In this document: positions 4,382-64,000 of the stretch, piece by piece
How positions within the stretch are numbered: position 1 is the stretch's first letter
Layout of the letters: each line of letters starts with the position of its first letter
Assembly (NCBI GenBank): GCA_030550395.1
Contig: JAUQPL010000002.1
Coordinates: 1 to 64,000, forward strand
Length of the DNA stretch: 64,000 nucleotides
Direction: 5' to 3'
DNA from: Bacteroidota bacterium
GTDB taxonomy: Bacteria; Bacteroidota; Ignavibacteria; Kapaibacteriales; HRBIN21
Notes under the pieces: model-generated
Database searches by the model: none
Seen by the model: only the letters and a program-made list of their open reading frames with translations
Told to the model about the DNA's origin: nothing
Program-made: the position numbers and the translations under genes

Positions 4382-5290
4382 TTAGCGGTATTGGGTGAGG
4401 ATGACCCCGGCGATAATCAGCAGTCCTCCTAGAAGGAAGGCGGGGGTTGGGGCGAAGCCGAAGAGGGGAATTGTAACCACGGTTGTAAAGACTGGCTGCA
4501 GGGTGGAGAAGATCGCTACGCGGCTTGGTTCCATGTGGCGGAGCGGGACAAGCCATAGGAAGTATCCGATGCCCGAGGTTACAATGCCCATGTAGAGGAG
4601 TTCTGCCCAGAGGATCGGCGTCAATTGGGCGAACTGGAGAGGGGCGCCAAGGAGAAACCAGATCGGAAGGTAAAGAAGCCATCCCGTCAGCATGCTGACG
4701 GCCGTTGTAGGCAGAGCACCGTACCGGAGGGCTAACCGTCGGCTCAGAACGGTGAAGCTTGCCCATGCAAGGCTGGCGCATAGGAGGAGGAGATTGCCAA
4801 GAGTATGGTGAGGTCCGAAAGCGAATTCTTTCTCTGCAAGGACGAACAGAACTCCAGTGAAGGAAAGCAAGATGCCCAGCACTTTGGGGCGGGTAATGCG
4901 CTCTTGGTGCAGCAGCCGGCTCAGGAGCAGTGCCCAAACGGGGGTGAGGGCATAGAGGAGAGAGGCATTGGCAGCGGTGGTGAGCCGGACTCCGGCGAAG
5001 AAACACCATTGGTTCAATGGCACGGCTAAGGCACCCAGGAGCAGAAGTTGGAGCATATCTGACGGAGGAGCAAGGTGGAAGAGGCGCTGCAGATGGCGGT
5101 GTCGCAAGAGCCAAAGAAGGGCAGCTGTGGCGGCAAATAGGCTTCTCCAGAACAGGACTGTCGGCGGTAGGAGTTGGGAGAGAGCATGTTGGGCGACCAC
5201 ATGAGTACTGGAGCCAATGACTTGCTGCAGTGTTAGCAGGAGGGAGTCTCCAGCAGCTCGGCGAGTTTGGGGTGTTGTGCTTCCCAGCAT
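4382..5290 (-). CDS. EamA/DMT-superfamily transporter
   Basis: Inner-membrane permease of the drug/metabolite transporter superfamily, about 302 aa, with roughly ten hydrophobic segments in two EamA repeats (about residues 20-150 and 165-300). The second repeat begins with LLLCASLAWASFTVLSRRL, typical of the family. The substrate cannot be told from sequence; members export amino acids, nucleosides or other metabolites. I chose the ATG at 5290 over a TTG at 5314 because the first membrane segment begins about 16 residues after it. The start lies inside the 3' end of the glycosyltransferase gene (58-bp overlap), which suggests co-transcription. Family call is firm, function open. Confidence 0.85.
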   Translation of the reverse strand: MLGSTTPQTRRAAGDSLLLTLQQVIGSSTHVVAQHALSQLLPPTVLFWRSLFAATAALLWLLRHRHLQRLFHLAPPSDMLQLLLLGALAVPLNQWCFFAGVRLTTAANASLLYALTPVWALLLSRLLHQERITRPKVLGILLSFTGVLFVLAEKEFAFGPHHTLGNLLLLCASLAWASFTVLSRRLALRYGALPTTAVSMLTGWLLYLPIWFLLGAPLQFAQLTPILWAELLYMGIVTSGIGYFLWLVPLRHMEPSRVAIFSTLQPVFTTVVTIPLFGFAPTPAFLLGGLLIIAGVILTQYR

Positions 5291-6372
5291 AAGTGTGTTG
5301 CAGCTTTCCGACAACGGTCGTGGTACTGCTGCCAGACTTCGGGAATCCGGAGAGTGCGAACGGCACGTCCCAGTTCTTCCAGGGAGAAATCCACAGACAG
5401 CAGGATGCCGATACGATACTGTTCAAACAGTTCTCGCAATGCTGGCAAAGCGGTGGCGATGGTTGGGATGCCTGCCATGCAGTATTCAAAGACCTTGTTG
5501 GGGAGTGCCAGTTCGTAGCTCTGGCTAATGGGTTCTATGAGAGCTAAGCCGATATCGGCAGAGGCCGTCCAGTCCAGGAGCTCATCGTACGGGCGCCATC
5601 CAAGCCAGAAGACTCGGTCGCTGACGCGGAAGTCTGCCGCCATTTGCTCCAAGGTGGGGCGGTATGCTCCATCACCCAAGATGCAGAGAACAACTTCAGG
5701 GAGGCGGCAGAGGAGGCGAATCCCGTGTTCGATGCCCCGTCCCTCATGTACAGCGCCTTGGTAAAGGAGCACGGTGCTATGCGGAGGCAAGCGGAGATGA
5801 TGGCGAATTCGGTCTGTCCGTACGGGGACGCGATAGGGTGGGACATTGAGCAGTACCAAGGGAGCTGTGCGGAGGTGATAGCGCCGCTGGAGAAGTTCGG
5901 CGTCAAGCTTACCGGAGACGATGCAGCGGTGTACGGAGCGGATGTACCGCCTTTCTACCCATTGGTGAATCCGCTGCATCAAAGGGCGCTTCCGGAGCGC
6001 TGCCAGGGCGGCGAAGATTTCCCGGGAGTCATAGAACAGACAAGCTTGGTGCATGCGAGCTAAGGAGGCGGCGAAGGGAAGGCCGTACAGATCCGCTGCC
6101 CAATATGCCCGTGCGTGCAAACGCTGCCAGTGCTGGAGAAGCCATAGGGCGAACAGAAGCCATTGCCATCGGACCCGGCGTGCGGTTGGTCGGGGACGCA
6201 GCAGTGCGGCAATTCCATACGGTTGGAGCTGTCGGTAGGCAGCGGCGTCTCCCCAACCAATCAGGCATATGCGATATCCCTGCCGAGCAAAACTCCGGGC
6301 AACGTTGAGCGTCCGGGCATCGTAAGCCACGTCGGACATACTGAGGATGCAAACGTCCCAGCGATTGTCCAT
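5233..6372 (-). CDS. Glycosyltransferase family 4 (group 1) protein
   Basis: GT-B-fold glycosyltransferase of about 379 aa, probably cytoplasmic or membrane-associated and acting in surface polysaccharide or glycolipid synthesis. The N-terminal half has the SMSDVAYDARTLNVARSFA segment seen in GT4 enzymes. The C-terminal half carries YQGAVHEGRGIEHGIRLL, LGDGAYRP and the donor-site region with KVFEYCMAGIPTIA, where the conserved Glu is present. The open frame extends upstream to 6633, but that part lies inside the FemAB-like gene; the ATG at 6372 starts the Rossmann domain directly and leaves a 5-bp gap to that gene's stop. Donor and acceptor are unknown. Confidence 0.86.
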   Translation of the reverse strand: MDNRWDVCILSMSDVAYDARTLNVARSFARQGYRICLIGWGDAAAYRQLQPYGIAALLRPRPTARRVRWQWLLFALWLLQHWQRLHARAYWAADLYGLPFAASLARMHQACLFYDSREIFAALAALRKRPLMQRIHQWVERRYIRSVHRCIVSGKLDAELLQRRYHLRTAPLVLLNVPPYRVPVRTDRIRHHLRLPPHSTVLLYQGAVHEGRGIEHGIRLLCRLPEVVLCILGDGAYRPTLEQMAADFRVSDRVFWLGWRPYDELLDWTASADIGLALIEPISQSYELALPNKVFEYCMAGIPTIATALPALRELFEQYRIGILLSVDFSLEELGRAVRTLRIPEVWQQYHDRCRKAATHLCWEAQHPKLAELLETPSC

Positions 6373-6377
6373 CGGGT

Positions 6378-7358
6378 TCAGAGAAAGCGGTAGTAAAACG
6401 TGCTTCGCAGGATACCGCGGCTGTCGAACCGTTCCTTGAAGTGGATCAGGCTCAGGGCGGGCGTCATTGGATTGGGGCTTTTCGTATCCTGGGAAACGCC
6501 AATGTCTACCCACTCGTAGCCCTGCTCGGTTGCCCAGCGGACGATTTCGTACATAAGCAGGTAGATTGGTCGCAGATGCTGGTATTCGTAGAGCATCATG
6601 TTGTAGAAGCACAGCACCACCTTCGGATTGCATAGGAAAAGAAGCGAGCCAGCGATGGGGGTCTGGTTGTAGTAGACCATGAGGAGGCGGAGATGTTCGG
6701 GAACCAGCTGCTGGAGCCGATAGAGGTCTTCCAAGGAGTGAGTGGGTTTGGCTCCATGCCTTGCTTTATTCTGCACCAGGATGCGGTAAAAGGTCTCGTA
6801 GTCTTGACTTTCTTCCACCCGGAGGCTTGCTTGACGGAGAAGCTTCCGGATGGTTTTCCGGGCGGTCTTGTCGAAAAAGCGTAAGAAAGATGCGCCATGC
6901 TTGAGGTGGATTGCATGCGAGATGTAGTGGTACTCAAAACCGAAGCGACGGTAGAGGAGGGCGTATTCCAGATTCTGGGAGTAGTTGCGGCTGTAGATGA
7001 AGGGAGGCGGGATCAGATAGAGTTCCCGTAGACCAATCCGACGTCCATAGGCCAGGAGAGCGTCCACAATTTCCAAAGCTAAGGCAAAGGGAATATCGCC
7101 TGTGACAATGCCACCGTAGCTGGCACCTACTGGGGACCAAAGAATCCGTCCATTGTCCATGAGTCCACCGGGCATGACGCCGACGAGGGCACCATTTTTG
7201 CGGAAGAGGAGGTGGTGGAAATGGAACTTCCCAGGGGGGTGGTAGTCCAAGAAGCATAGTCGGTGGAACATTGTCCCGTTGTTGGAGTTCTGGACGAAGG
7301 CTTCCCACTCGTTGCGGTGTTCGGGACGGTATTCTTCGACAATGACGGAAGACTCCAT
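6378..7358 (-). CDS. FemAB-related GNAT-fold transferase (Acetyltransf_6 type)
   Basis: Predicted aminoacyl- or acyltransferase of the FemAB/BioF2-like branch of the GNAT fold, about 326 aa. The features are the N-terminal EYRPEHRNEWEAFVQ...NGTMFH region, the central GASYGGIVTGD segment, a basic KTARKTIRKLLRQA helix, and a C-terminal domain ending in DIGVSQD and LIHFKERFDSRG, where an F-K-x-R/G pattern is common in this family. Relatives act on peptidoglycan bridges or on exopolysaccharide; the neighbouring glycosyltransferase favours an envelope role (inference). The frame opens at a GTG at 7409, but the ATG at 7358 matches the usual family start. No clear Shine-Dalgarno is seen at either. 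Confidence 0.8.
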   Translation of the reverse strand: MESSVIVEEYRPEHRNEWEAFVQNSNNGTMFHRLCFLDYHPPGKFHFHHLLFRKNGALVGVMPGGLMDNGRILWSPVGASYGGIVTGDIPFALALEIVDALLAYGRRIGLRELYLIPPPFIYSRNYSQNLEYALLYRRFGFEYHYISHAIHLKHGASFLRFFDKTARKTIRKLLRQASLRVEESQDYETFYRILVQNKARHGAKPTHSLEDLYRLQQLVPEHLRLLMVYYNQTPIAGSLLFLCNPKVVLCFYNMMLYEYQHLRPIYLLMYEIVRWATEQGYEWVDIGVSQDTKSPNPMTPALSLIHFKERFDSRGILRSTFYYRFL

Positions 7359-7418
7359 CGGAGCGATAGACAGAGCGATGCCGTAGAAGTGCAAAAGTAC
7401 AGGGTTCACGGATTCATG

Positions 7419-8942
7419 CTACACTGGCTCAGGGAGGGCAGACGGTTGCAGCGGGAGTTCTACGTGGACGGTTGTTCCCTTCCCCAAGGTGCTGCGAATG
7501 CGTACATGGCCGTGGTGAGCTTCTACCAATCGCTTGACAATCCAGAGCCCTAAGCCAGAGCTAGGTTCCCCACCGGTGGGTTGAGCACTAAGGCGAGCCC
7601 CGCGTTGGAAAGCGTTGCGCACATCTTCTTCGCTCATTCCCAGACCATTGTCCTCAACCTCGATATGCATGCGTCCTTCGCGGACGTAGGCTCGGATGAT
7701 GGCCGTGGCGCCGTGAGGGGAGTATTTGATGGCATTGCTGACCAAGTTGTCCAGCACTTCTTCTATGCGTTGGGGATCGGCGGGGATGAGCGGGAGTCCA
7801 GGCTCTATTTCCTGGAGGAGAGCGATAGACTTGCGCTCTGCTAAGGGTTTGTTCTGATGGGCAACGGACTGGATGAGAGTGGGAATGTCGACCGGTTGCA
7901 AATTCAGCTGCAAGAGCTCCGCCTCTAAGGCGAGGATGCGGGAGATTTCCTGGGAGAGCTCCACAATGCGGCTTGTGGTTTCTACGATGTCGTTGATGAT
8001 CTGCTGCTGCTCTTGAGCACTGAGGTCGTACGAACGCAGAAGCTCGACCAAGCTCCGGATGATGAGCGCCGGATTTTTAATGTCGTGGACCAGCATGGCA
8101 AAGAGGGTATCCTTCTGCTCCTGGAGTTGGAGCAGTTCTTCCTGTTTTGCCGACAGGCGTTCAACCTGTTCCCGGAGCGTTTTGTTCTCCTGTTGGAGAT
8201 AACGGCTCCGTGCTTCCAGAGCGCTGATTTGTCCCCGTAGATTCTGAAGTTCTGCCTTCAGGCGGCTGTTTTCTCCGAGGAGACTGTCGTACTCTGCACG
8301 GGAGATTGCGTTGGAAGAAGCTGCCTGCCGGGCTTTCATGGCAAGCTTGCGGCGGATAGTAAGACGGTACCACGTGAGGAACCCCAGTAGGAGGAGGATA
8401 GTTCCGGCAGCTCCGGAGGCAAGAAGGAGCCATGTCCATCCATCACCAGCCTGGACATGCGGGGAAGCGGATGGCTGGGCGGTCTCGGAAGACAGCGCAG
8501 TGGCTTTCTGTCGTTGCTTCCACCGTTCTTTCCACTGCTGAGCAGCTTCCGCATTGACGGAAAAAGAAAGGCTGACAGGTTTTGCGTACCATCCTTCTGC
8601 GGGGGCGAAGGCTTGAACAGTAAAGCGGTAGCTCCCTTCGGGGAGGTTCGTATAGAGGACGCTGTCTACCCCAAGGGAACGCTCCTGTTGCCGGTTATCC
8701 TCAAGCCGGCGTAGGGCGATGCGGAACAGCAATGGGGTAGGGCTCGGGGGGCAGCGGCATGCATAGGCGAGGCTCAGCGTGTCTGTAGGAGCAATAGCGA
8801 GGCTATCCCATTCGCCATTTTGTAGATTGGCCCCGTTGAGGGCGATAGAACGCAGGATCGTCTGCCGTTCCACGGGCTGGGCTGAAGCTATAAGGGCAAA
8901 ACCGACCCAGAGGAGAACCCTATGGATTACTCTTCCACCCAT
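7419..8942 (-). CDS. Membrane sensor histidine kinase with Y_Y_Y-like sensory domain
   Basis: Two-component sensor kinase, 507 aa. In order it has a signal peptide (1-21), an extracytoplasmic beta-rich region ending in LPEGSYRFTVQAF...GWYAKP (about 95-130) that resembles the Y_Y_Y domain of hybrid sensors, a transmembrane helix (about 170-192), and a long coiled coil (about 205-280). A HisKA domain follows with phospho-acceptor His286 in VHDIKNP, then a HATPase domain with N box (DNLVSNAIKYS), G1 (DNGLGMSEED) and G2 (GLGLWIVKR). No response regulator is adjacent, so its partner is elsewhere. It overlaps the upstream HAD phosphatase gene by 16 bp, which argues for an operon. The signal sensed is unknown. 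Confidence 0.9.
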   Translation of the reverse strand: MGGRVIHRVLLWVGFALIASAQPVERQTILRSIALNGANLQNGEWDSLAIAPTDTLSLAYACRCPPSPTPLLFRIALRRLEDNRQQERSLGVDSVLYTNLPEGSYRFTVQAFAPAEGWYAKPVSLSFSVNAEAAQQWKERWKQRQKATALSSETAQPSASPHVQAGDGWTWLLLASGAAGTILLLLGFLTWYRLTIRRKLAMKARQAASSNAISRAEYDSLLGENSRLKAELQNLRGQISALEARSRYLQQENKTLREQVERLSAKQEELLQLQEQKDTLFAMLVHDIKNPALIIRSLVELLRSYDLSAQEQQQIINDIVETTSRIVELSQEISRILALEAELLQLNLQPVDIPTLIQSVAHQNKPLAERKSIALLQEIEPGLPLIPADPQRIEEVLDNLVSNAIKYSPHGATAIIRAYVREGRMHIEVEDNGLGMSEEDVRNAFQRGARLSAQPTGGEPSSGLGLWIVKRLVEAHHGHVRIRSTLGKGTTVHVELPLQPSALPEPV

Positions 8943-52569: not shown

Positions 52570-52645
52570 GTGCTTGTGAATCCAAAGCTGTGGTGATTCA
52601 ATGCAAACACAGGACAACAAGTGGTCTTTAGTCGGTGGAGGAGCC

Positions 52646-55600
52646 ATGAAGCAGTGGTTGCGTCTTTGTGCCTCCTTTGTGGTGGGATTAGTAGCAATCA
52701 GCGTGAGTTACGCTCAACTACCAGTCATAGAAGTCAGCGGGCGCTTGGGGCCCGGCGAGGTCCGCATTTTCCTCAAGGATACGCTGTACCGGATTAGCGG
52801 AACGTATATGATTGCCGGGACGCTCATCATTGAGCCCGGTACTATTGTAGAATTCATGCCGAATGGGCGTCTCATTGACTCCGTTGGTGGACGGATCATT
52901 GCCGACGGCTACGTCTCGGCAAATTACGTACAATTCCCTGGTGGGTGTAATCCGGTAGATCCTTTTAACCCATGCGGATACACAGGCTATGCCGACCTCA
53001 ATTATTTCCAAGCCGCTGCACAAAGCAGCATTGTGGGTGATCCGACGATAGATCCCAGCAAGCACGGAGAGATTTTCTTGGTTAACCTGGGAGCTGCTCC
53101 TCAGTTGCAGAACCTGACTCCAGGGCAGGCAATTATGTATGCTGCTGCCCGCCTACACTTTGCTGCTTACGACCCGAATATTAACCAGACGCCGTGGAGG
53201 CGTGCAGGAGGCGGAAGTGTAAATGTCGCGCAAGGACAAATCATCTTCCGAGGACGCCCGGTTAACAACTTCTCTCGGGAATGGGGACACATTATTGTAT
53301 TGCCAGGTGCGCGGGCGGCTTTCTTCCGGAATGTCCGATTTGAGAACTTCCGCAAAGACACTACAGTCGATCGGTTCCCCATCTACCAGCCCAATACGGG
53401 CGCTATTGCGGCGTTGAATGCCAATCTCATTCAGCAGACAAATGGCAGTGGCGGGGTTATCACAAGCTTTTCGTCGCGTACATGGCTACTGCTGTGCGAA
53501 TTCCAGAACAATATGGCGCGCTACCGTGGAGGAGCTGTGCAGCTGCTCCAAGCACCTGTTGGAACGGGGGTTTATCCCCAACCCGATATTTCGGGACTAC
53601 CGGACTATGGAGCGATCAATCCATACTTGACCGATAACGCCTCTGGAGTGCCTATAGCGCAGGCAGTAAAGGCGATAGACCAGATTTATAGCGCCAATCC
53701 GGAGCCTCTGACCAACAGTGACCGCCAGGCGTACGACGATGCCCGGTTAGCGGTTCTACTTGGGCGGGTCCGCTATTTAACCTTTACCGGCAATCGTGTA
53801 TTGCTCTCTAGTGTGGTGCTCCAGCAGATTGCGCCAGGCGTGTGGGCGATAATAGATGACATCAACAACCCTGCTCCGCTAGAGCCGCAGGCTTGGAAGA
53901 ACCAAGCGTATGGTGGAGCAGTCTATATTGCTGGGCGAACGCCGTTAGAAATTGGTCTGGGGATGAATGATTACCAAGCCCCGAACGTGTATGACTATGT
54001 CTTCTTTGACGGCAACAGCGCAGCGAACTTGCAGAACAATCCAAACACCGGCGGGGCTCGTGGTGGAGCGCTCTACGTGGGTGGGGCAACATCGGTAACA
54101 CTCCGTGGACGCTTCCTGTCAAATCAAGCCTCTGTACCGTTCTTTACAGATCCCAACCAAGTAGGAGCCCTGTCTCAAGGTGGCGCTGTCTACGTTAGCA
54201 CAGATGCTGGGCGCCTCCAAGTCCGAGGACGGCAAGGTGGGGAGGCGCGCCAAGAGACCTATTTCGTGGGCAATCAAGCAGGCCGCGGAGGGGCTATTTA
54301 TGTTGCTGCCGGTGTGGATACGCGCCCCTCTCCCGTCATTGGTGGCTCGGACGCTCTGATAGACACCCGTAACTATGGCTATAACATCAAGTTCCGGAAC
54401 AATCGCGCGGCCGATCACGGCGGAGCAATCTTTTCAGGGAAGAACTTCACTGTCTATGGCGCTGGTGGAACAGTAGGACCGCTGTCGCTCTACGGGGGTA
54501 ACTATCCAGTAGAATTTGACAACAATGTAGCAGGTTTTTCTGGAGGAGCTATCGCAGCACATTTGCCCTGTCCACCTCCGGACTGTTTGCCGATTGAGAG
54601 ACGGTATATCCGGATTGTGCGGGCGGTATTTACGAACAACGTTGTTGGGCAGGTTCAACAGGGCTATGAACCTCAAGTTCGCGGCGGAGGGGCTGTCTAT
54701 ACACTCAATGCAGATCTCAACGTAGTCAAGGGAGTAGAATTCCGAGCGAATAAGGCGTACAACGGGAACGGTGGTGCCGTCTGCATTGTGCATCCGCAGA
54801 CCTCTTCCCATCGGTTCTTCCTGACAGATGTTGACAATGTAGTTACCCTACCGTCAGGGGTAGCGGTAAGCTTTACCTCGCGAGACGACATCTTCACCTG
54901 GGATCCAACTCCTGGGACACCGGTGCCGGATGTGCGGATGTTAACTCGCTTCTTTGATAATGAGGCTGTTCCAAACATGGCGGAGATGGGTTCGGGAACG
55001 ACCCAGGTAGGGGACATCCGGCGCCAACACCCAGGCACGAATCTGCGAGAGAATGGGACAGGATTGGGAGGAGCCCTCTATGTGTTGGATGAAGTAAGCC
55101 TGAACCGTTCTGGGCGGACAGATTCTATCTTCTTCAACCGAGTGCGCATCCAAGGAAACAGGGCGTATACGGGAGCAGCAGTCTATTCGGATAACTACAA
55201 TCTTCAATTAGTCTTCAGCCGGAGCCTGATTACAAATAACACAGCAACCTCCGATATCGGTGCCCAGCAGAATGCTATCACTGGTCCCCTGGTGTCGGGG
55301 ACAAATCTGGCGTCCAGCGATTTAGCGGGAGCAATTCTCTACGGCGATGTCGTCGGCCCGCTGCCATATGAGAGCTATCACTGGGCAGCGAATGCGATTT
55401 ATGATAACTCCGCTCGTTTCCTCATTCGCCTCCCTGATTATCCGGATACAAAAGGAGCGCGAGCGGGCACAGGAGTTGGAATGGGCGGCGTTGATACTCT
55501 CCGAGGCAATTATTGGGGAAGGACCGAAGCAAACGTTGTTACTATTCTGCCAGTAAGCGGGCGTGTTCAGGAAACCTTCTTCGTGGCAGGTGATGGTACG

Positions 55601-58600
55601 CAACAGTTGGGCTTTGTCCTTGGTGGTACGGGGAAGAATCAGGGGCCATTTGAGTCACGGCATCTCTACAACTACACGCCGATCCCAGTCCTCAACGCGG
55701 GGAATGAGAATACTCCTGATCCAAGCAGCATCCCCGAGCGCCTGCTTATGCAGGGACATATTTACGACATATTTGACAAGGGAACGGATATCAAAACGGC
55801 GGACTACTCCAACCGTCGGATGGCCCCGATAGAAGATTTTGCCGTTGGGATTCCAAAGACGTTGCGGAAGTTCAGTGATCCGACTCTGCCCTCGTATGGG
55901 AAGTACGTCCGCCGATGGACCCGCAATCCATTTGATGCAGAAGCCGATCCCAATATCGCAGCACTTCAGACAGAGTTCCGAAGCGAAAAGCATCCGATAG
56001 GATATCCGCTCTTCCTAGAAGCTCGGGCAGATTATTCAGGGACAGCAGAATTAAACAACAACGATCCACGGGCAATCAACGAGACGGTCTTCTTTGTCAT
56101 TAACACTAACACGGGGGACTACATCCGGGTCAATCTGCAGCAGACAAGCCCAACTAGCGAGGTATTCCGAGCTCGAGTAGAGTTAGTTCCTGATTCTGTG
56201 GGGCGGCGCCCTGCGGATCGGCGCACGATTGAGGGGCTAGCGAACATCGGCACCAATCTAGGGGCAATCTTGTCTGCTCTCCAACGGGATGCACAGATAG
56301 AGGACCTGGCTGCTTTACAGGGACGGAAGTATCAGGGATTTGTAAACGAGCTTGGTGGTCCTGGATTTGGATATGTCAATCGGATTTTGCCTGCTGACGG
56401 TGCTATTAGCCCACAAAGGGTAACGGTGTTTGCTGGTGAGCGGTATAGTGCCTTGCCGGTGCAAATCGGCGACATTGTTGCCGTCGTATCGCGGACAGCC
56501 TTATGGCAAGGCTCTGTTGCTGATGCAATTAAGGGGGCTCTCATCTTTGAGGTCGGAGCAACAGTTGACCCGCCAGTGTTTACGGGTAATAAAGTGGAGT
56601 TGGAGAACGTTACACCACCGGAGTTGCGAAATATGGTCTTCTTGACGGAGGACGTTAGCTATCCGCGTCCGCCGACGGGTCCGGGACGGGATTCTATCTT
56701 CACGATAACAGCCATTGACTCCAACCTCTTCTATGACCCGCGGTCCGTTCTATTCCCTGACCGGTATACTCAGCTTGCGTACTTCTGGAGCGTGCCTCCG
56801 GGATCGGGGTTATCGTACTGGCTACAGGCGGATACAATCCGGGCAGGGGATCCACGCAATCCTTACTACGGAGCTCGTGGGTACGTTATTTTGAAGGGAC
56901 GTCCTACGAATCCGTTTGTGGTGCCTGGTGGGGAGGTGGTGACTGTTGCAGTTCGGAATTATCCTCCGAGTGCTCGAACTGTGGATTCACTCAAAGCGGC
57001 GGGGTTGAGCGATAGTGTGATTGCAAAGTACATCTATCTTTACCCGCCGTACTTCAACGCGCAGGCTTATGATGGGAGCAATGCCCGGTTCCTGCAGCAG
57101 GATACGGTTGACTTTGGGAATACAGCAGCGACAACGGTGACATACCAGTTCCGGATCTTTGTCATTGACAGTACGCCTCAATTCACCGGGTTTGAGGTCG
57201 CCTGCGAACGAGGGGGTCTCTGGTTAGCGAACCTGACGGACAGCCTCCGCTTCAAGGTAGATATCAACACAGATGATGAAGCGGAAGATGCCGAGGCTGG
57301 AGCCCGCGGATGGGACTTCCGCTATGGGCGGACGACATACGGCTTTGCTTCCATAAGCCTGCGGGATGCGCCACCGGATACGGTCGTTGAGCCCACCACG
57401 CAAGTGCGTCCCGTGTGGATGAGCAATCAATACTTGCGTCGCTACAACAATAGTGGACAACCCGATCCGCTGGCGATAGACTTTAGCGTGAACGGGCAAA
57501 TCAATGTGCGGATTGACTCGGCCACCGCATGGCGGTTGCTAACACCAGCAATCCAGCATCATGGTGCACTGAATACAGACACGCTGGTTTCAATCGTGGT
57601 TAACGATGGACACGGAGGGGTTAACTATCTGACGCGTCCGATTCTTGTCAACGTTGCTCCGGTCATTATTACAAGCACATTGCCGGATGCTATAGAGGAT
57701 CAAGACTACAACCCAACGCTTCTGGATTCCAGCCGCCGTATCGTCGTGTATGACCCGAACTTTGGTCAGGCACATCAGTTTGAGCTCATCTATCCGGGTG
57801 ATCCACGGGACTTCGTGCCACGTGATCCATGCTTCCCTGAGGCGGGAGCGTGGGATCTGCGGGATAAGAAGACAACACCGCGCTGGCTCAAGATCGATCC
57901 AGTCAGTGGCTTGCTCTACGGAACACCTGGGGTCTACGATGCTCCGCGGCAGGAAAAGGTGACAGTACTCGTAACGGATGAGTTTGGGTTGACTCACGTG
58001 AAAGTCTTGGATCTGAATGTGCGGATGGTGAATCATCCGCCACGGTTAGCACAGTTGCCGGTGACCAAGTGTGTGGAGCTTGGGAAGCCGTACGTGGATA
58101 CGCTCGTAGTTATCGATCGGGATCTGCTGCGCCAAGAGCCGCAGGATGCTCGAGAACAGCTGACTATCGAGGTCGTGGAGCCAGCGGGATTCCAAGTGAG
58201 CCCGGCAACAATCAATGGTCCACAATCTTCTGACACAGTGCGGGTTATCATCAGCACGGCAGCGCTGAATGCGACGCCGGGCCCGGATGGGAAGGTTACT
58301 ATCCGTGTCCGAGTCGTAGACCGGCAAGGGGCTCAGCACGAAGTGACCTACAAGCTGAATGTCTCCGAGCCAACAGACTTCGTGGTTCCCATGCGGATTG
58401 AAAATCGTTTCGGTGCCTTCCAGACTCTGGAGTGGGGAACAGCGCCGTTGGCGACCACAGGCGATGATCCCAACCGAGGTGGTATAGGAAAGTTGGATTC
58501 CAACTATTGCGAGTACGAACTTCCGCCGATTCCGCCGAACGACGTCTTCGACGCTCGGTGGACGATTGCCTCTACTAATGGAACAGTACGGAATATCTTC

Positions 58601-59245
58601 CCGCGAGCCGTGGCTGGCGTAGAGGGGCAAGCGATCTACAAAGGGCGGTTCCAGGCAGGGAGTGTGACAGGAAATGCTTCGGAGGCGTATCCAGTCCGCA
58701 TTACGTGGAGCTTCCAGGATGTCCCCGACCGGAATGATGCTACGCGTAACCCTGCCGGTTCTACGTGGTACATCCGTGATGGGGCTTCCAACGGGAACAT
58801 CTTCAGCTTCAATATGCGCACGGGCGAAGGGCATTCTATCCCAGCGGTGGCATTGGAGCGGAACGGGGATTCGTTGTCGGTGGTAATCTACACTGATGCA
58901 GTCACGAACTTTATCATCGTATACGACTTCATCAGCAATGCCCCTGAACCGGCGGCTGCCATCGCAGGCCCTGTGCAAATACTGGGCAATATTCCGAACC
59001 CGTTTGCGCAAACCACACAGATCCGCTTCCGCCTCGCAGAGCCTTCTACTATACGGCTGGAGGTGTACGATGCGCTGGGTACGAAGGTGGCTACCCTAAT
59101 GGAGGGCTTCTATCCAGCGAACGAATACGTTGTCCCGTGGAATGGGAGCAGGGCTGATGGTGTAGAAGTGCCCAGCGGTGTCTACTACTATCGAATCACA
59201 GCTGGGGAAGTGACCCTTGTGCAACCGATGGTGCTTGTCCGATAA
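52646..59245 (+). CDS. Giant secreted T9SS protein with PMP-like beta-helix repeats
   Basis: 2199 aa. It has a signal peptide (MKQWLRLCASFVVGLVAISVSYAQ, cited by position 1-24), then a long region (about 200-900) rich in paired motifs of the form F-x-N-N and G-G-A-[IV]-[YF], at least ten times (e.g. FRNNRAADHGGAIF, FDNNVAGFSGGAIA, FVGNQAGRGGAIY), as in chlamydial polymorphic outer-membrane proteins and other parallel beta-helices. Putative Ig/cadherin-like domains follow (LPDAIEDQDYN, KIDPVSGLLYGTPG), then a C-terminal T9SS type A sorting domain (NPFAQTTQIRF...GVYYYRI...VLVR). It is likely exported through T9SS to the surface. I chose the ATG at 52646, with GGAGGAG just upstream, over 52601. 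Function unknown; adhesion is plausible. Confidence 0.88.
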   Translation: MKQWLRLCASFVVGLVAISVSYAQLPVIEVSGRLGPGEVRIFLKDTLYRISGTYMIAGTLIIEPGTIVEFMPNGRLIDSVGGRIIADGYVSANYVQFPGGCNPVDPFNPCGYTGYADLNYFQAAAQSSIVGDPTIDPSKHGEIFLVNLGAAPQLQNLTPGQAIMYAAARLHFAAYDPNINQTPWRRAGGGSVNVAQGQIIFRGRPVNNFSREWGHIIVLPGARAAFFRNVRFENFRKDTTVDRFPIYQPNTGAIAALNANLIQQTNGSGGVITSFSSRTWLLLCEFQNNMARYRGGAVQLLQAPVGTGVYPQPDISGLPDYGAINPYLTDNASGVPIAQAVKAIDQIYSANPEPLTNSDRQAYDDARLAVLLGRVRYLTFTGNRVLLSSVVLQQIAPGVWAIIDDINNPAPLEPQAWKNQAYGGAVYIAGRTPLEIGLGMNDYQAPNVYDYVFFDGNSAANLQNNPNTGGARGGALYVGGATSVTLRGRFLSNQASVPFFTDPNQVGALSQGGAVYVSTDAGRLQVRGRQGGEARQETYFVGNQAGRGGAIYVAAGVDTRPSPVIGGSDALIDTRNYGYNIKFRNNRAADHGGAIFSGKNFTVYGAGGTVGPLSLYGGNYPVEFDNNVAGFSGGAIAAHLPCPPPDCLPIERRYIRIVRAVFTNNVVGQVQQGYEPQVRGGGAVYTLNADLNVVKGVEFRANKAYNGNGGAVCIVHPQTSSHRFFLTDVDNVVTLPSGVAVSFTSRDDIFTWDPTPGTPVPDVRMLTRFFDNEAVPNMAEMGSGTTQVGDIRRQHPGTNLRENGTGLGGALYVLDEVSLNRSGRTDSIFFNRVRIQGNRAYTGAAVYSDNYNLQLVFSRSLITNNTATSDIGAQQNAITGPLVSGTNLASSDLAGAILYGDVVGPLPYESYHWAANAIYDNSARFLIRLPDYPDTKGARAGTGVGMGGVDTLRGNYWGRTEANVVTILPVSGRVQETFFVAGDGTQQLGFVLGGTGKNQGPFESRHLYNYTPIPVLNAGNENTPDPSSIPERLLMQGHIYDIFDKGTDIKTADYSNRRMAPIEDFAVGIPKTLRKFSDPTLPSYGKYVRRWTRNPFDAEADPNIAALQTEFRSEKHPIGYPLFLEARADYSGTAELNNNDPRAINETVFFVINTNTGDYIRVNLQQTSPTSEVFRARVELVPDSVGRRPADRRTIEGLANIGTNLGAILSALQRDAQIEDLAALQGRKYQGFVNELGGPGFGYVNRILPADGAISPQRVTVFAGERYSALPVQIGDIVAVVSRTALWQGSVADAIKGALIFEVGATVDPPVFTGNKVELENVTPPELRNMVFLTEDVSYPRPPTGPGRDSIFTITAIDSNLFYDPRSVLFPDRYTQLAYFWSVPPGSGLSYWLQADTIRAGDPRNPYYGARGYVILKGRPTNPFVVPGGEVVTVAVRNYPPSARTVDSLKAAGLSDSVIAKYIYLYPPYFNAQAYDGSNARFLQQDTVDFGNTAATTVTYQFRIFVIDSTPQFTGFEVACERGGLWLANLTDSLRFKVDINTDDEAEDAEAGARGWDFRYGRTTYGFASISLRDAPPDTVVEPTTQVRPVWMSNQYLRRYNNSGQPDPLAIDFSVNGQINVRIDSATAWRLLTPAIQHHGALNTDTLVSIVVNDGHGGVNYLTRPILVNVAPVIITSTLPDAIEDQDYNPTLLDSSRRIVVYDPNFGQAHQFELIYPGDPRDFVPRDPCFPEAGAWDLRDKKTTPRWLKIDPVSGLLYGTPGVYDAPRQEKVTVLVTDEFGLTHVKVLDLNVRMVNHPPRLAQLPVTKCVELGKPYVDTLVVIDRDLLRQEPQDAREQLTIEVVEPAGFQVSPATINGPQSSDTVRVIISTAALNATPGPDGKVTIRVRVVDRQGAQHEVTYKLNVSEPTDFVVPMRIENRFGAFQTLEWGTAPLATTGDDPNRGGIGKLDSNYCEYELPPIPPNDVFDARWTIASTNGTVRNIFPRAVAGVEGQAIYKGRFQAGSVTGNASEAYPVRITWSFQDVPDRNDATRNPAGSTWYIRDGASNGNIFSFNMRTGEGHSIPAVALERNGDSLSVVIYTDAVTNFIIVYDFISNAPEPAAAIAGPVQILGNIPNPFAQTTQIRFRLAEPSTIRLEVYDALGTKVATLMEGFYPANEYVVPWNGSRADGVEVPSGVYYYRITAGEVTLVQPMVLVR

Positions 59246-59345: not shown

Positions 59346-61226
59346 ATGATGGCGATGCGGACACTTGGAGCAATTGTCACACTGCTTGTTGGTGGGTGGC
59401 TCATTGCGGAAGCACAGGTATATGCGGAGTTCTATCCTGCCGTTAAAGTAGGAAATAAGCCCTATACGACCCTGGCGGGGGCAACAGTGCTGGATGCTAA
59501 CCAGTTTGTTGATCCTGCAACCAACAATCCTGATCCTGACAATGGGTATGCGGTGGTTCCATTACCATTCCTCTACGAGTACCAGGGATACCGATATAGC
59601 CGATTAGCAATCTCCGTAAATGGGTTTGTCATCCTACTGAGAGCTGCTGAAACTCCTCCACTAACGGGGGGCAATATCCCGGGGCGTCTCTTTGTTAACA
59701 CAGAGCCCTTCAACGTCATAGCTCCTTTCTGGGGAGATCACTATTACCGAACGGTGGAGCCTGGCTATACCCCATCCCAGATTTCCTACAAGACAGTGGG
59801 AGCAGCTCCGAATCGGGCGTTCGTCGTTGAATGGAAAAACTTGAACATCAATAATAAGACGTTGCCTTCTAGCGTTGCTAGCTTCCAGCTGTGGTTATAT
59901 GAATCGTCACTTCCGGGCAATTTCCAGGGGGATATAGAGTTCGCGTATGGATTGACAGGGTCTGGTGGACCTGTACAAGTGCAGGGAGCTGCTATCGGGA
60001 TTAAAGGAGGATTTGGAGACTATCTCAATGGCTTAGTCTTCACTGGGGACGTTAACCAAGCCCGTACTTCAACGATTTTGAGCACGACATGGCAGCCTTC
60101 AGGCGGCAGTGATACGGTGATTCGCTTCAATGCAATCCCTCGGCTCTTCCTGGAGGGGTGGGGTGACGGAGACGTAGACTTTTCTCAGGTAGGTAAGCAT
60201 GCGAATATGGGACAGGATCGGTTCGTCACGGTCAACGACGTGATGCTAATCCTCCGCTCCGTTGCAACGGACCGTCGGTTAGATAGTCTCAAAGGGCGAC
60301 CGGCGTATCACGGTGATGTAAACCACAACGGGCGCTTTTACTACTCTACTCGGAATTTGGATAACAGTGGTGATTCAGTCTACCACCGCCGTGCCATTAC
60401 GACGCGGTCTCTCTATTACTGGCAGGACTTGCCTGCGGATAACTCGCTCCCTTATATTGGAGGTGATCCGGTGCTCTTCTTTGAGGCAACCGAGTACGAT
60501 GCTGCGATCATCATGCTGTATATGGCGGGTCGTATTCCCTACCTTCCGTGGCTGCTGGATCTGACAGTGTTGCCGCCGTATGGACGAGGTGCTGCTGCGG
60601 TGGAAATTGCTCGCCGTGTGCAAATTGGACAGCCCTATGCTGTTGCGCCAGGTGCCTATCAATTTCCAGTGGCTCTTGACGGTGCGTGGAAGGGGGCTCT
60701 GGGATTACGGGCACAGTTCAAAGGGGAGATTGTTGGTGTTGAGGTACCACCGCACTTTGCGGAAAAACTTCTACTTGACCGCGAGGGGGGGCGGATAGCT
60801 GTCGCTGGTGTTGTGGAGTGTGAGCCGGGTGAACCCCTGCTGTACGTGACCGTGCGAACAGAAGAGCCTGTGGTGCGGGTAGAAAAGATACGGTTCAATG
60901 ACATCGAACTGCCAGATATCGTGGTGCCACTGTCAGCGACACCGGTAACAGGGGTAGCTGTACATGCTGCTCCTAATCCGGCGGTTGATCGCACACGGAT
61001 AAACTTCTGTGTGCCTGAAGCTGGACGATATCGGCTCTGCGTTTACGATGCGGTAGGACGACTCGTGCGTGTATTAGCCGATGCAGAGTATGCGGTAGGG
61101 AACTACTGGGTGGAATGGGATGGGACCAACGCCAGAGGCGAGCGCATCGGCGCGGGTACCTATGTATGCCGGCTTGAGGGACCATCGGGGAGCTACGAAG
61201 TCCTTCCGGTAGTATGGTTGCGATAG
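59346..61226 (+). CDS. Secreted T9SS protein with dockerin-like segment
   Basis: 626 aa. A signal peptide (about 1-23, ending AEA) is followed by a beta-rich N-terminal domain (NGYAVVPLPFLYEYQGYRYSR, NVIAPFWGDHYYR) seen in other T9SS proteins. Residues ~275-400 hold two calcium-loop-like repeats, GDGDVDFSQV...RFVTVNDVMLILRSV and GDVNHNGRFYY...TEYDAAIIMLYMAG, that follow the GDVNxDGxVNxxDxxxLxxxL dockerin pattern with longer inserts. A T9SS type A sorting domain closes the protein (NPAVDRTRINF...CVYDAVGRLVRVL...GTYVCRLEG). It lies between the giant PMP-like protein and two cohesin-like proteins. Export to the surface is likely; binding to the neighbours is inference. Confidence 0.85.
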   Translation: MMAMRTLGAIVTLLVGGWLIAEAQVYAEFYPAVKVGNKPYTTLAGATVLDANQFVDPATNNPDPDNGYAVVPLPFLYEYQGYRYSRLAISVNGFVILLRAAETPPLTGGNIPGRLFVNTEPFNVIAPFWGDHYYRTVEPGYTPSQISYKTVGAAPNRAFVVEWKNLNINNKTLPSSVASFQLWLYESSLPGNFQGDIEFAYGLTGSGGPVQVQGAAIGIKGGFGDYLNGLVFTGDVNQARTSTILSTTWQPSGGSDTVIRFNAIPRLFLEGWGDGDVDFSQVGKHANMGQDRFVTVNDVMLILRSVATDRRLDSLKGRPAYHGDVNHNGRFYYSTRNLDNSGDSVYHRRAITTRSLYYWQDLPADNSLPYIGGDPVLFFEATEYDAAIIMLYMAGRIPYLPWLLDLTVLPPYGRGAAAVEIARRVQIGQPYAVAPGAYQFPVALDGAWKGALGLRAQFKGEIVGVEVPPHFAEKLLLDREGGRIAVAGVVECEPGEPLLYVTVRTEEPVVRVEKIRFNDIELPDIVVPLSATPVTGVAVHAAPNPAVDRTRINFCVPEAGRYRLCVYDAVGRLVRVLADAEYAVGNYWVEWDGTNARGERIGAGTYVCRLEGPSGSYEVLPVVWLR

Positions 61227-61238
61227 TGGTCATGGTGG

Positions 61239-62372
61239 ATGCTCCGTGGGCGAGTGGCGCTGTTAGCAATTGCCGTGGTGGGGGAAGGGCAGATGCTTGG
61301 TGCCGGACAAATAGCACGATTCGCCGTTCGGGTGTGGGACACCGTGGATGTCTGTGGGCGAAGAGAATGCGTGCTTGTTGTGGATGTTACTCCTCCTGTG
61401 GAATCGCAGGATAGTCTTATGGGTTTCAACCTCGCCATACGGTTTGATCCGGAAAAGCTGGTCTTCCACACCTTGTTGACCAGCGGGACGCTGGCGGAAG
61501 CAATGGACCAGCGGGGATTCAATGCATCGTATGGTGAGATTCGGGCATATGCCTTTACACTTACTCGGACGATCTCTGGTGCCCGACCTTTGGTAGCCTT
61601 TTTGGGAGACTACCGTCAGGAATGCCCGGACACAACCTCTGTGCAGTTGTTGTACGTAGAGTTCAATGAGGAATTTGAAAGGCGGAGAACGGTGGTAGTA
61701 GATACGACACCGGTCCCTGTTTATGCGCGAGTCATGGAGCTCCCCTCTCGGGTTATGCGGACCAAAGCCTCCGACCATGAATGGCAAATCCAAGAGGAGG
61801 ATACAGCCCTGTGGTGGGAGCTCCGTGTGGGGTATGATTCTTCACTCTCCCTGAGGATAGCACAGACTGTTGTAGATGGGCTCCCGCGGTGGGTACAGGT
61901 CCACGGCGTTGCCACTGTTGACAGTTCTGCAGTGAGGGCATGGGAGCGCCGAGACAGCGCTCTTATGGTGACGTGGCGTCCTTCACCGAATGTAGGGATT
62001 CGTGTGGGATTGTCTGTGATTGAGAGAAAGAGCGATACGGCGCTTCTGCAGGCTTGGACTTATCCCCTGGATTCATGCTCTTGCATAACTCAGTGGACAC
62101 GGGATAGCTTGAGGGTGGTGAACTCCGCGGTGGTATCTGTCCCCTTTGTTACTGAGAGCGGGCATAAGATAGTGTGGTTCGCCAACTCTTCTTTCTCCGT
62201 TGGGGTAGGCGAACGGTTAGAGTTGTACGATCTACTGGGACGGCTTTTCTACAGCAAGGAGGCACAAGGAGAACGGCATCGCATTTCCTTGCAGGGAGTT
62301 CCTGCAGGGATATATCTTGGGCGATGGCATCGTGCCGGGGGAGTATACCCCGTTATGGTAATTGTGCAATGA
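61239..62372 (+). CDS. Secreted protein with cohesin-like domain and T9SS-like C-terminus
   Basis: 377 aa. A weak signal peptide (LRGRVALLAIAVVGEGQ) precedes a beta-sandwich region (about 30-150) with LMGFNLAIRFDPEKLVFHT, the pattern found in cohesin domains where a strand contains xDPxxL. A middle domain is unrecognised. The C-terminus (ELYDLLGRLFYSKEAQGERH...GIYLGRW...PVMVIV) resembles a T9SS sorting domain but lacks the usual NPF-type opening. It begins 12 bp after the dockerin-like gene, and the next cohesin-like gene begins 33 bp later, so the three are probably one transcript. Assignment of cohesin is by pattern only. Confidence 0.72.
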   Translation: MLRGRVALLAIAVVGEGQMLGAGQIARFAVRVWDTVDVCGRRECVLVVDVTPPVESQDSLMGFNLAIRFDPEKLVFHTLLTSGTLAEAMDQRGFNASYGEIRAYAFTLTRTISGARPLVAFLGDYRQECPDTTSVQLLYVEFNEEFERRRTVVVDTTPVPVYARVMELPSRVMRTKASDHEWQIQEEDTALWWELRVGYDSSLSLRIAQTVVDGLPRWVQVHGVATVDSSAVRAWERRDSALMVTWRPSPNVGIRVGLSVIERKSDTALLQAWTYPLDSCSCITQWTRDSLRVVNSAVVSVPFVTESGHKIVWFANSSFSVGVGERLELYDLLGRLFYSKEAQGERHRISLQGVPAGIYLGRWHRAGGVYPVMVIVQ

Positions 62373-62405
62373 GGGTCTGTTGAATTTGCTCCGTGAGGAG
62401 AGACA

Positions 62406-64000
62406 ATGCGACAGTGGGTGTCTGTGTGGAAGATGGTAGCAGTTCTAATTGTTGCGGTTATTGGCAACACTGTATCACGGGGGCAAACATTTGATGTCAA
62501 GCTCCCACTATTGAGCTTGACTGGAAGTGGTCCGGGATATGACGCGCAGATTTATCCGGCAGGCTTTATTGTTGTGCCCCAGGAGGCGACTCCGCAACAA
62601 CCGAGGGAATTATTAGTGCCGGTTTATATCCGAAACTGTTGGGTTCCCTCTAACCATCCCGTATGGGGGAAGGTGTGGCCGATTTATAGCTTTGAATTCA
62701 AGCTCAAGTACGATGGGGACCTATTGGAGTTCTTGGGAATCCAGAAGGTAAGTCCAAGGGGAGATAGCGTGTTAGCCAAAGACTTTACCTTCGTCTTTGA
62801 TGATGTCCCGATCACGGCATCACACATGTTGGGGGCATTGGTGGATTGGCACAACTTAGGGAGTGTTCCTCCGGTCTACGGTCCACGGCGCATCCGCATC
62901 GTTGCAAGCTCGGCCAAGCCTCTACCACCCAGTCCTGCAGGACCTGGCCAAGATCCATGGGACCCGACGATACAGTGTGATCAGCGACAATATGTGCCTG
63001 TTATCTACTTGCGTTTCCGGGTCCGGGGAGTGGCGGGCACGATAGCGCGGTTGATCCTCTCCAATGACACTCTCAAGTACAATGACCTTAACCTGAGCGT
63101 TTTCCCAGCAGAGCCGTTCCCCAACAATCCGTCGGGTTCTCGGTATCGGGATTTTATAACGTATCGTACAGGTGGAGCTACGGGGAATGTGTCGTATGAA
63201 GGCCTGGAGGGGGTTGATAACCGAGGGCTGCTTCCGATTGCCAACCTATACCCGAGTATGCCAGGGATGATTTACGTGTTCGTCACAGAAATTCCCCAAA
63301 TTGGTTTTGAACCGCGGCTTGGGGTTGATGCTGTGGTACGACAGGTTTCCCCCAGCGGGGATGAGTGGGAGGTTATCCACCCCATTGTGTTGGACTCTGC
63401 TTCTTGGACACGCGGGGTCTTCTATGGTCGGCGGGAACTGGTAGTGACCAACGAGGTAGAGGGCACGCGATTGACAAACATTATTGTTGAGTCTAACGCA
63501 CAGTGGCTCAAATTCCAGACCTTCGCTGCAGCTCCGGGTGATAGGAATCCTATACCACAGATCACCCGCTCGGGAGTGATTGACTATATAGACCGAACAT
63601 TGGGCGAGACTATCCTGCAAGACATCCAGAACAATCCCCAGGCGCCATCGCGTCCGCAGAATTTCCGCATCCTCTGCGATCCACAGGCACTGCCGCAGAA
63701 TACTGATGCTGCAGGTATTTACGTGGGCTATATCACCTTCCGAACTCTATCGGCATCGGTGTCTCCGGTCCGTCTGCGAGTGACGTTCATCTACGTGCGA
63801 AATCCGGTTGAGCCGAACAATGATCCACGGAACCTATCTGCATTGGGTCAAGGAATCCGGATTACGGTAACCAACTCCGCTGCTACGCCGCAATCGGCGA
63901 CGCTGGTCTTTGGACTGGGGATTCGGGCAACAGATGGGATAGACACCCTCTTTGGGGAGACGGTATACGACAACCCACCTGTTGCGGGGAGCTTCTATGC
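62406..64000 (+). CDS. Secreted protein with cohesin-like N-terminal domain, 3'-truncated by window edge
   Basis: The frame from the ATG at 62406 is open for 531 codons and runs off the window. A signal peptide (about 1-26: WKMVAVLIVAVIGNTVS then RGQ) leads to a cohesin-like beta-sandwich (about 60-215), with LLVPVYIRNCW, YSFEFKLKYDGDLLEFLGI and YLRFRVRGVAGTIARLILSND, in the order seen in cohesins. Further beta domains follow (GRRELVVTNEVEGTRLTN; AAGIYVGYITFRTLSASVSP), which look like BACON- or Ig-type folds. No C-terminal sorting domain can be seen because the gene is cut. It is the last of the secreted-protein run. Confidence 0.85.
   Translation, partial: MRQWVSVWKMVAVLIVAVIGNTVSRGQTFDVKLPLLSLTGSGPGYDAQIYPAGFIVVPQEATPQQPRELLVPVYIRNCWVPSNHPVWGKVWPIYSFEFKLKYDGDLLEFLGIQKVSPRGDSVLAKDFTFVFDDVPITASHMLGALVDWHNLGSVPPVYGPRRIRIVASSAKPLPPSPAGPGQDPWDPTIQCDQRQYVPVIYLRFRVRGVAGTIARLILSNDTLKYNDLNLSVFPAEPFPNNPSGSRYRDFITYRTGGATGNVSYEGLEGVDNRGLLPIANLYPSMPGMIYVFVTEIPQIGFEPRLGVDAVVRQVSPSGDEWEVIHPIVLDSASWTRGVFYGRRELVVTNEVEGTRLTNIIVESNAQWLKFQTFAAAPGDRNPIPQITRSGVIDYIDRTLGETILQDIQNNPQAPSRPQNFRILCDPQALPQNTDAAGIYVGYITFRTLSASVSPVRLRVTFIYVRNPVEPNNDPRNLSALGQGIRITVTNSAATPQSATLVFGLGIRATDGIDTLFGETVYDNPPVAGSFY

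Follow-up and report, generated by a model that had tools for sequence, protein, structure and literature searches.

Kapabacteria carry a conserved gene cluster in which a secreted protein with a dockerin-type domain, concealed from standard profile scans by inserts in both of its calcium loops, is followed by two proteins whose N-termini are supported as cohesin-type domains. The fixed gene order suggests a dedicated surface assembly. Contig C3 (255,590 bp) of a 1.94 Mb genome begins with the window that we analysed, 64,000 bp in all. The genome has its relatives among the Kapabacteria/OPB56, the nearest named ones being Bacterium HR21 and a Candidatus Kapabacteria MAG. Within the window lie the following genes of the cluster:

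52601-59245, plus strand: giant secreted protein of 2214 aa, the first gene of the cluster (Pfam, TIGR04183, synteny, hhalign)
59346-61226, plus strand: 626-aa dockerin protein with signal peptide, N-terminal domain, interrupted dockerin, beta-sandwich and T9SS-type C-terminus
61239-62372, plus strand: 377-aa cohesin protein
62406-64000, plus strand: start of a 1025-aa protein with an N-terminal cohesin, several beta domains and a T9SS-type C-terminus

The 1025-aa gene crosses the window end and runs to contig position 65483; it is followed, at contig positions 65554-66276, by a gene for a small T9SS-type protein of 240 aa. The first-pass annotation had singled out the 626-aa, 377-aa and 1025-aa genes as adjacent ORFs, and its placement holds, including the spacers of 12 bp (626-aa to 377-aa gene) and 33 bp (377-aa to 1025-aa gene). 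Export by the T9SS, which it had also proposed, agrees with the T9SS-type C-termini of the encoded proteins and with the presence of SprA (944 bits), which indicates that the source genome has a T9SS. The C-terminus of the giant protein lies above the TIGR04183 cut-off and that of the 626-aa protein above the FlgD_ig cut-off, and a Por_Secre_tail match occurs in 21 of the 31 orthologues of the 377-aa protein. By sequence, the proteins of the cluster resemble cargo of Sec plus T9SS.

The giant protein is composed of Chlamydia-PMP-type beta-helix repeats (Pfam Chlam_PMP, 1.7e-14), an Ig-like segment and a T9SS-type C-terminus, with a Pfam FlgD_ig match (1.6e-6); no dockerin or cohesin domain was found in it. 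It shares with the 1025-aa and 240-aa proteins a domain (hhalign 99%) that has no Pfam match, carries a motif like FG...ATDGxD..GE..PPxPP..FDARF, and is placed mid-chain or near the T9SS-type C-termini:

52601-59245, plus strand: giant protein, shared domain at about residues 1970-2135
4407-7484 of locus L003: 1025-aa protein, shared domain at about residues 480-650
7555-8277 of locus L003: 240-aa protein, with the shared domain

The cluster order is giant beta-helix protein, dockerin protein (626 aa), cohesin protein (377 aa), cohesin protein (1025 aa) and small T9SS-type protein (240 aa). Its first four genes occur in this order in all 33 neighbourhoods from relatives, and in most of these the 240-aa gene comes next (BLAST). 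Order and strand are likewise kept in the best 80 named Kapabacteria/OPB56 loci, which overlap with the 33 neighbourhoods in that many loci come from shared genomes; the gaps are mostly contig ends, with one divergent locus (L140). The suspected association with the upstream giant beta-helix gene is thereby borne out as co-inheritance. Across 395 genomes sampled from the phylum, matches are found only in the order and in three other genomes of the class. A comparison of 61 genomes (the source genome plus 60 from relatives) found no dockerin protein in any of the ten that represent one family, nor in two further genomes. In those ten genomes, the 1025-aa profile matches only at the C-terminal end among the matches listed; one of the two further dockerin-less genomes has an intact 1025-aa gene, located at a contig start.

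The domain layout of the 626-aa protein is as follows:

59418-60143, plus strand: N-terminal beta-rich domain, residues 25-266 (AlphaFold pLDDT mostly about 90)
60159-60551, plus strand: dockerin-type domain, residues 272-402, with two F-hand repeats and an insert in each calcium loop
60171-60239, plus strand: calcium loop 1, residues 276-298, ligands D276, D278, S280 and D298 (orthologue alignment)
60315-60500, plus strand: calcium loop 2, residues 324-385, ligands D324, N326, N328 and D385 (orthologue alignment)
60603-60941, plus strand: beta-sandwich after the dockerin, residues 420-532 (pLDDT about 83-92)
60963-61223, plus strand: T9SS-type C-terminal (FlgD_ig) domain (Pfam; hhalign 99.9% to the C-terminus of the giant protein)

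The loop motifs are GDGDVDFS (residues 273-280) and GDVNHNG (323-329), and an alignment of 34 orthologues gives the repeat consensus GDxDxS-(insert)-RFVTxxDxxxILRSVA and GDVNHNGR-(insert)-(V/A)NxYDAALIMxYxxG. Across the 74 orthologues with parsable loops, the insert in loop 1 is 11-16 residues long (median 13) and that in loop 2 is 33-98 (median 47); the latter sits between positions 7 and 8 of the canonical 12-residue loop and is shorter in two outgroup genomes from another family of the class (L154 and L155). The calcium ligands are kept throughout this variation in insert length. D276, D298, D324 and D385, which occupy positions 1 and 12 of the two loops, are invariant in 77 of 77 aligned orthologues, and the remaining ligand positions are nearly so (278 is D/N in 74/77, 280 is S/T in 76/77, 326 is N/D in 77/77 and 328 is N/D/S/T in 77/77). 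This pattern is consistent with calcium binding by the dockerin loops, which we infer. In the AlphaFold model, a helix follows each loop (296-308 and 383-393), and pLDDT falls below 50 in parts of the dockerin loops.

Neither the intact 626-aa protein nor its intact dockerin region has a Pfam Dockerin match. After in silico excision of the inserts, the window sequence matches Pfam Dockerin_1 (PF00404) at 25.2 bits (E 1.9e-5, curated cut-off 22.9) and spans profile positions 2-55 of 57. All eight excised sequences tested match, and five of six order members do so above the curated cut-off; we chose the excision boundaries from the alignment, using identical columns for the order members, and trimmed two outgroup sequences by hand. 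Five shuffles of the excised sequence gave no Dockerin_1 match. Excision raised the hhalign probability against Pfam-recognised dockerins of the order from 4-16% to 89-91% over 55 columns that cover both repeats, and the excised profile scored 33.2 against a maximum of 14.6 among 60 column shuffles. Motif alignment, model helices and profile match all point to the two tandem F-hand repeats, loop then helix, that characterise a dockerin. Intact Pfam scans miss the domain because both calcium loops carry inserts, and the verdict of no dockerin and no cohesin to which intact Pfam and NCBIfam scans lead is misleading, since the inserts hide the dockerin. The two-repeat, calcium-loop dockerin pattern read earlier in this protein stands, calcium ligands included; its recognition by the Dockerin_1 profile holds with the loop inserts excised but not for the intact protein.

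Other parts of the 626-aa protein are less readily named. The N-terminal domain has a weak Nidogen-like (NIDO) match (E 0.074) in one distant orthologue (L154). A profile of the intact dockerin region retrieved an unrelated prefoldin, weakly, from PDB chains, and the beta-sandwich profile retrieved nothing; Foldseek with the full 626-aa model returned mainly generic Ig-like tandems and was set aside. The beta-sandwich at residues 420-532 reaches only 31-34% hhalign probability against cohesins, and we do not claim it as a third cohesin.

The two genes that follow encode these domains:

61341-61733, plus strand: cohesin-type domain of the 377-aa protein, about residues 35-165 (hhalign 94.3%; Pfam Cohesin in orthologues)
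62487-63095, plus strand: cohesin-type domain of the 1025-aa protein, about residues 28-230 (hhalign 95.2%; AlphaFold pTM 0.75; Foldseek)

The hhalign reference for both was the set of Pfam-recognised cohesins from the Kapabacteria order. Most of the other domain profiles stay under 1% against this set; the exceptions are the middle domain of the 377-aa protein (9.5%) and the post-dockerin beta-sandwich (31%). The intact window proteins lie below the Pfam Cohesin (PF00963) cut-off, with no match. In the 377-aa family, Pfam Cohesin matches 5 of 31 orthologues (best 1.3e-4), and at the orthologous position in one relative (G048) it reaches 26.1 bits against a cut-off of 24.1. Genome-wide Cohesin searches of G048 and two further genomes (G007 and G035) found a match just 3' of the dockerin gene, above the cut-off in G048. 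In the 1025-aa family, 8 of 34 proteins match (best 0.05). For the AlphaFold model of the 1025-aa N-terminal domain, Foldseek ranks 1-32 among 350,542 PDB chains are all cohesins, with no CBM; the best E is 2.9e-4, and the TM-scores to target peak at about 0.55, a modest value that the insertions in this domain would lead one to expect. Profiles of both domains against 177,635 PDB sequences also have cohesins as their top matches, although these are weak (E 0.26-0.73). The cohesin jelly-roll fold is thus predicted by the model for the 1025-aa N-terminal domain, and for the 377-aa domain it is suggested by the 94% profile match. Overall, these results support the cohesin-type N-termini ascribed to both genes by the first-pass annotation; the Cohesin profile itself matches some orthologues of both proteins, passes its cut-off at one 377-aa locus and leaves the window proteins below it. 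In the 377-aa family, Cys39, Cys129, Cys280 and Cys282 are invariant, a sequence pattern that points to a conserved CxC motif and suggests that the cohesin domain contains a disulfide.

We give an even chance to the reading that Kapabacteria use these genes for a dedicated cohesin-dockerin assembly at the cell surface, free of enzymes, in which the giant beta-helix protein would be the stalk or adhesive part. The proteins would leave the cell via Sec plus T9SS, and outside it the calcium-loaded, interrupted dockerin would plug into one or both of the cohesin domains, that of the 377-aa protein and that of the 1025-aa protein, joining the 626-aa N-terminal domain to these proteins. The giant protein would belong to the same surface complex as stalk or adhesive part and would attach by means other than a dockerin, possibly through the domain that it has in common with the 1025-aa and 240-aa proteins. 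Domain identities, conserved ligands, gene order and T9SS signals are what the sequences show; the binding of cohesin to dockerin within the cluster, the composition of the complex and its structural or adhesive role are what we infer. Somewhat more tentatively, we envisage a core Kapabacteria surface complex that is built of T9SS-exported single-cohesin proteins and the interrupted dockerin and carries the giant beta-helix protein; structured inserts in both calcium loops would provide a new recognition surface, and the role of the complex would be solely structural or adhesive. Inserts of this length could instead prevent or change the contact with a cohesin. Interruption of a loop is in itself compatible with binding: ScaA and CttA of Ruminococcus flavefaciens have dockerins that still bind cohesin with inserts of 12 and 13 residues in the second calcium loop (PMC5934362).

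Compared on residual evolutionary distances, the dockerin shows correlations of 0.22 and 0.23 with the two cohesin domains, a weak hint, against -0.17 to 0.09 with the other domains of the two cohesin proteins. The corresponding value is 0.26 for the dockerin protein's own N-terminal domain and 0.04 for the adjoining beta-sandwich. Assigning partners from such mirror-tree residuals was abandoned as too weak. The last of these values bears on an unlikely reading in which the dockerin packs on the beta-sandwich of its own chain (residues 420-532), acts as a hinge stabilised by calcium in the manner of the X-module and dockerin of Ruminococcus CttA, and leaves the cohesins of the neighbours unbound. 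The dockerin directly adjoins this beta-sandwich, with L400-P401 invariant and W402 near-invariant at the junction; the sandwich is itself weakly cohesin-like, and the CttA inserts serve as buttresses (PMC5934362). However, residual co-variation between the two domains is absent, and a pair of separate cohesin-type genes comes next at every locus where the contig extends far enough.

It is quite improbable, in our estimation, that the cluster takes part in a genome-wide network in which its dockerin pairs with cohesins encoded elsewhere and its cohesins accept other dockerin proteins. Further candidates do exist in the source genome, as a dockerin in a 717-aa frame and a near-threshold cohesin in a 770-aa frame, and Pfam dockerins and cohesins are found in 64 and 81 of 119 order genomes, respectively, but the tight synteny and the joint absence in one family suggest that the cluster proteins serve one another. 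Similarly doubtful is the proposal that the folds persist and the binding is lost, such that an adhesin set retains cohesin-type domains as generic beta-sandwich or ligand-binding modules and a dockerin that serves stability in a calcium-dependent manner: both loops are interrupted, the intact proteins fall below Pfam cut-offs, and cohesin and CBM folds are related, yet Foldseek places cohesins rather than CBMs at the top, the calcium ligands are retained despite variation in insert length, and a dockerin adjoining two cohesins would be an unlikely coincidence.

The dedicated surface assembly that we favour would resemble known cohesin-dockerin systems in its modules more than in its architecture. 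With the cellulosomal type I pairs of Clostridium thermocellum (PDB 2ccl, 1ohz), it shares a two-repeat F-hand dockerin with D-x-N/D-x-N/S ... D ligands and a loop-helix pattern, as well as jelly-roll cohesins. The Kapabacteria cluster departs from those pairs in that inserts break both calcium loops, each cohesin protein has a single cohesin where cellulosomes have a tandem scaffoldin, the proteins bear T9SS-type signals, and no catalytic or cellulose-binding domain was found. In the cluster proteins scanned, Pfam and NCBIfam detected no catalytic or CBM family, and we found no tandem-cohesin scaffoldin, only one N-terminal cohesin-type domain in each of two proteins whose other domains are unconvincing as cohesins. 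A cellulosome is ruled out by this lack of enzymes, CBMs and tandem cohesins. The insert in the second calcium loop recalls R. flavefaciens ScaA and CttA, but the Kapabacteria dockerin carries inserts in both loops, has a far longer second insert, is non-cellulosomal and belongs to another phylum.

A cellulosome-like complex combining T9SS with cohesin and dockerin has been proposed for Candidatus Stygibacter of the Cloacimonadota (PMC8542988). There too, a cohesin protein is proposed to attach to the surface by a C-terminal domain and to have partners with dockerins, but it is one large tandem-cohesin scaffoldin served by dockerin-bearing hydrolases, whereas the Kapabacteria proteins are separate, single-cohesin and enzyme-free. 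Enzyme-poor or non-cellulosic cohesin-dockerin systems are reported from ANME archaea and from Planctomycetes, the ‘planctosome’ (PMC9012536, PMC6461901). These likewise have cohesin and dockerin modules that lack a cellulose-degrading role; however, ANME proteins are described as varying between species, whereas the Kapabacteria gene order is fixed across an order. A literature search that took in few subscription papers yielded no published description of the Kapabacteria cluster. The earlier impression that such a system was undescribed in this lineage therefore stands for Kapabacteria, with the Cloacimonadota proposal as precedent for the combination.

If the proposed assembly exists, cohesin-dockerin plugging, elsewhere described as a lineage-variable add-on, would be a conserved, enzyme-free surface scaffold of a widespread and poorly known lineage. 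The cluster offers one dockerin and two cohesins for mutual testing, and a dockerin in which large inserts are tolerated in both calcium loops. Since standard Pfam scans miss such interrupted dockerins, cohesin-dockerin systems are probably under-counted.

Canonical dockerins and cohesins also occur outside the cluster in genomes of the order. In the source genome, the 717-aa and 770-aa frames are encoded on contigs C8 and C9 (L001, L002). A separate family of ~450-520 aa proteins (L161-L183), with a Pfam-recognised dockerin and a long stretch between its repeats, recurs across the order. In the dockerin-less family, f7 (G011, G019, G026, G032, G037, G042, G047, G052, G056 and G060), no full-length 1025-aa protein was seen, and some members (e.g., G037, G042 and G056) have canonical dockerin and cohesin modules adjoining within single proteins. 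Kapabacteria bacterium KatS3mg039 has two cluster copies about 45 kb apart (L071, L076), the second with its dockerin gene in two frames.
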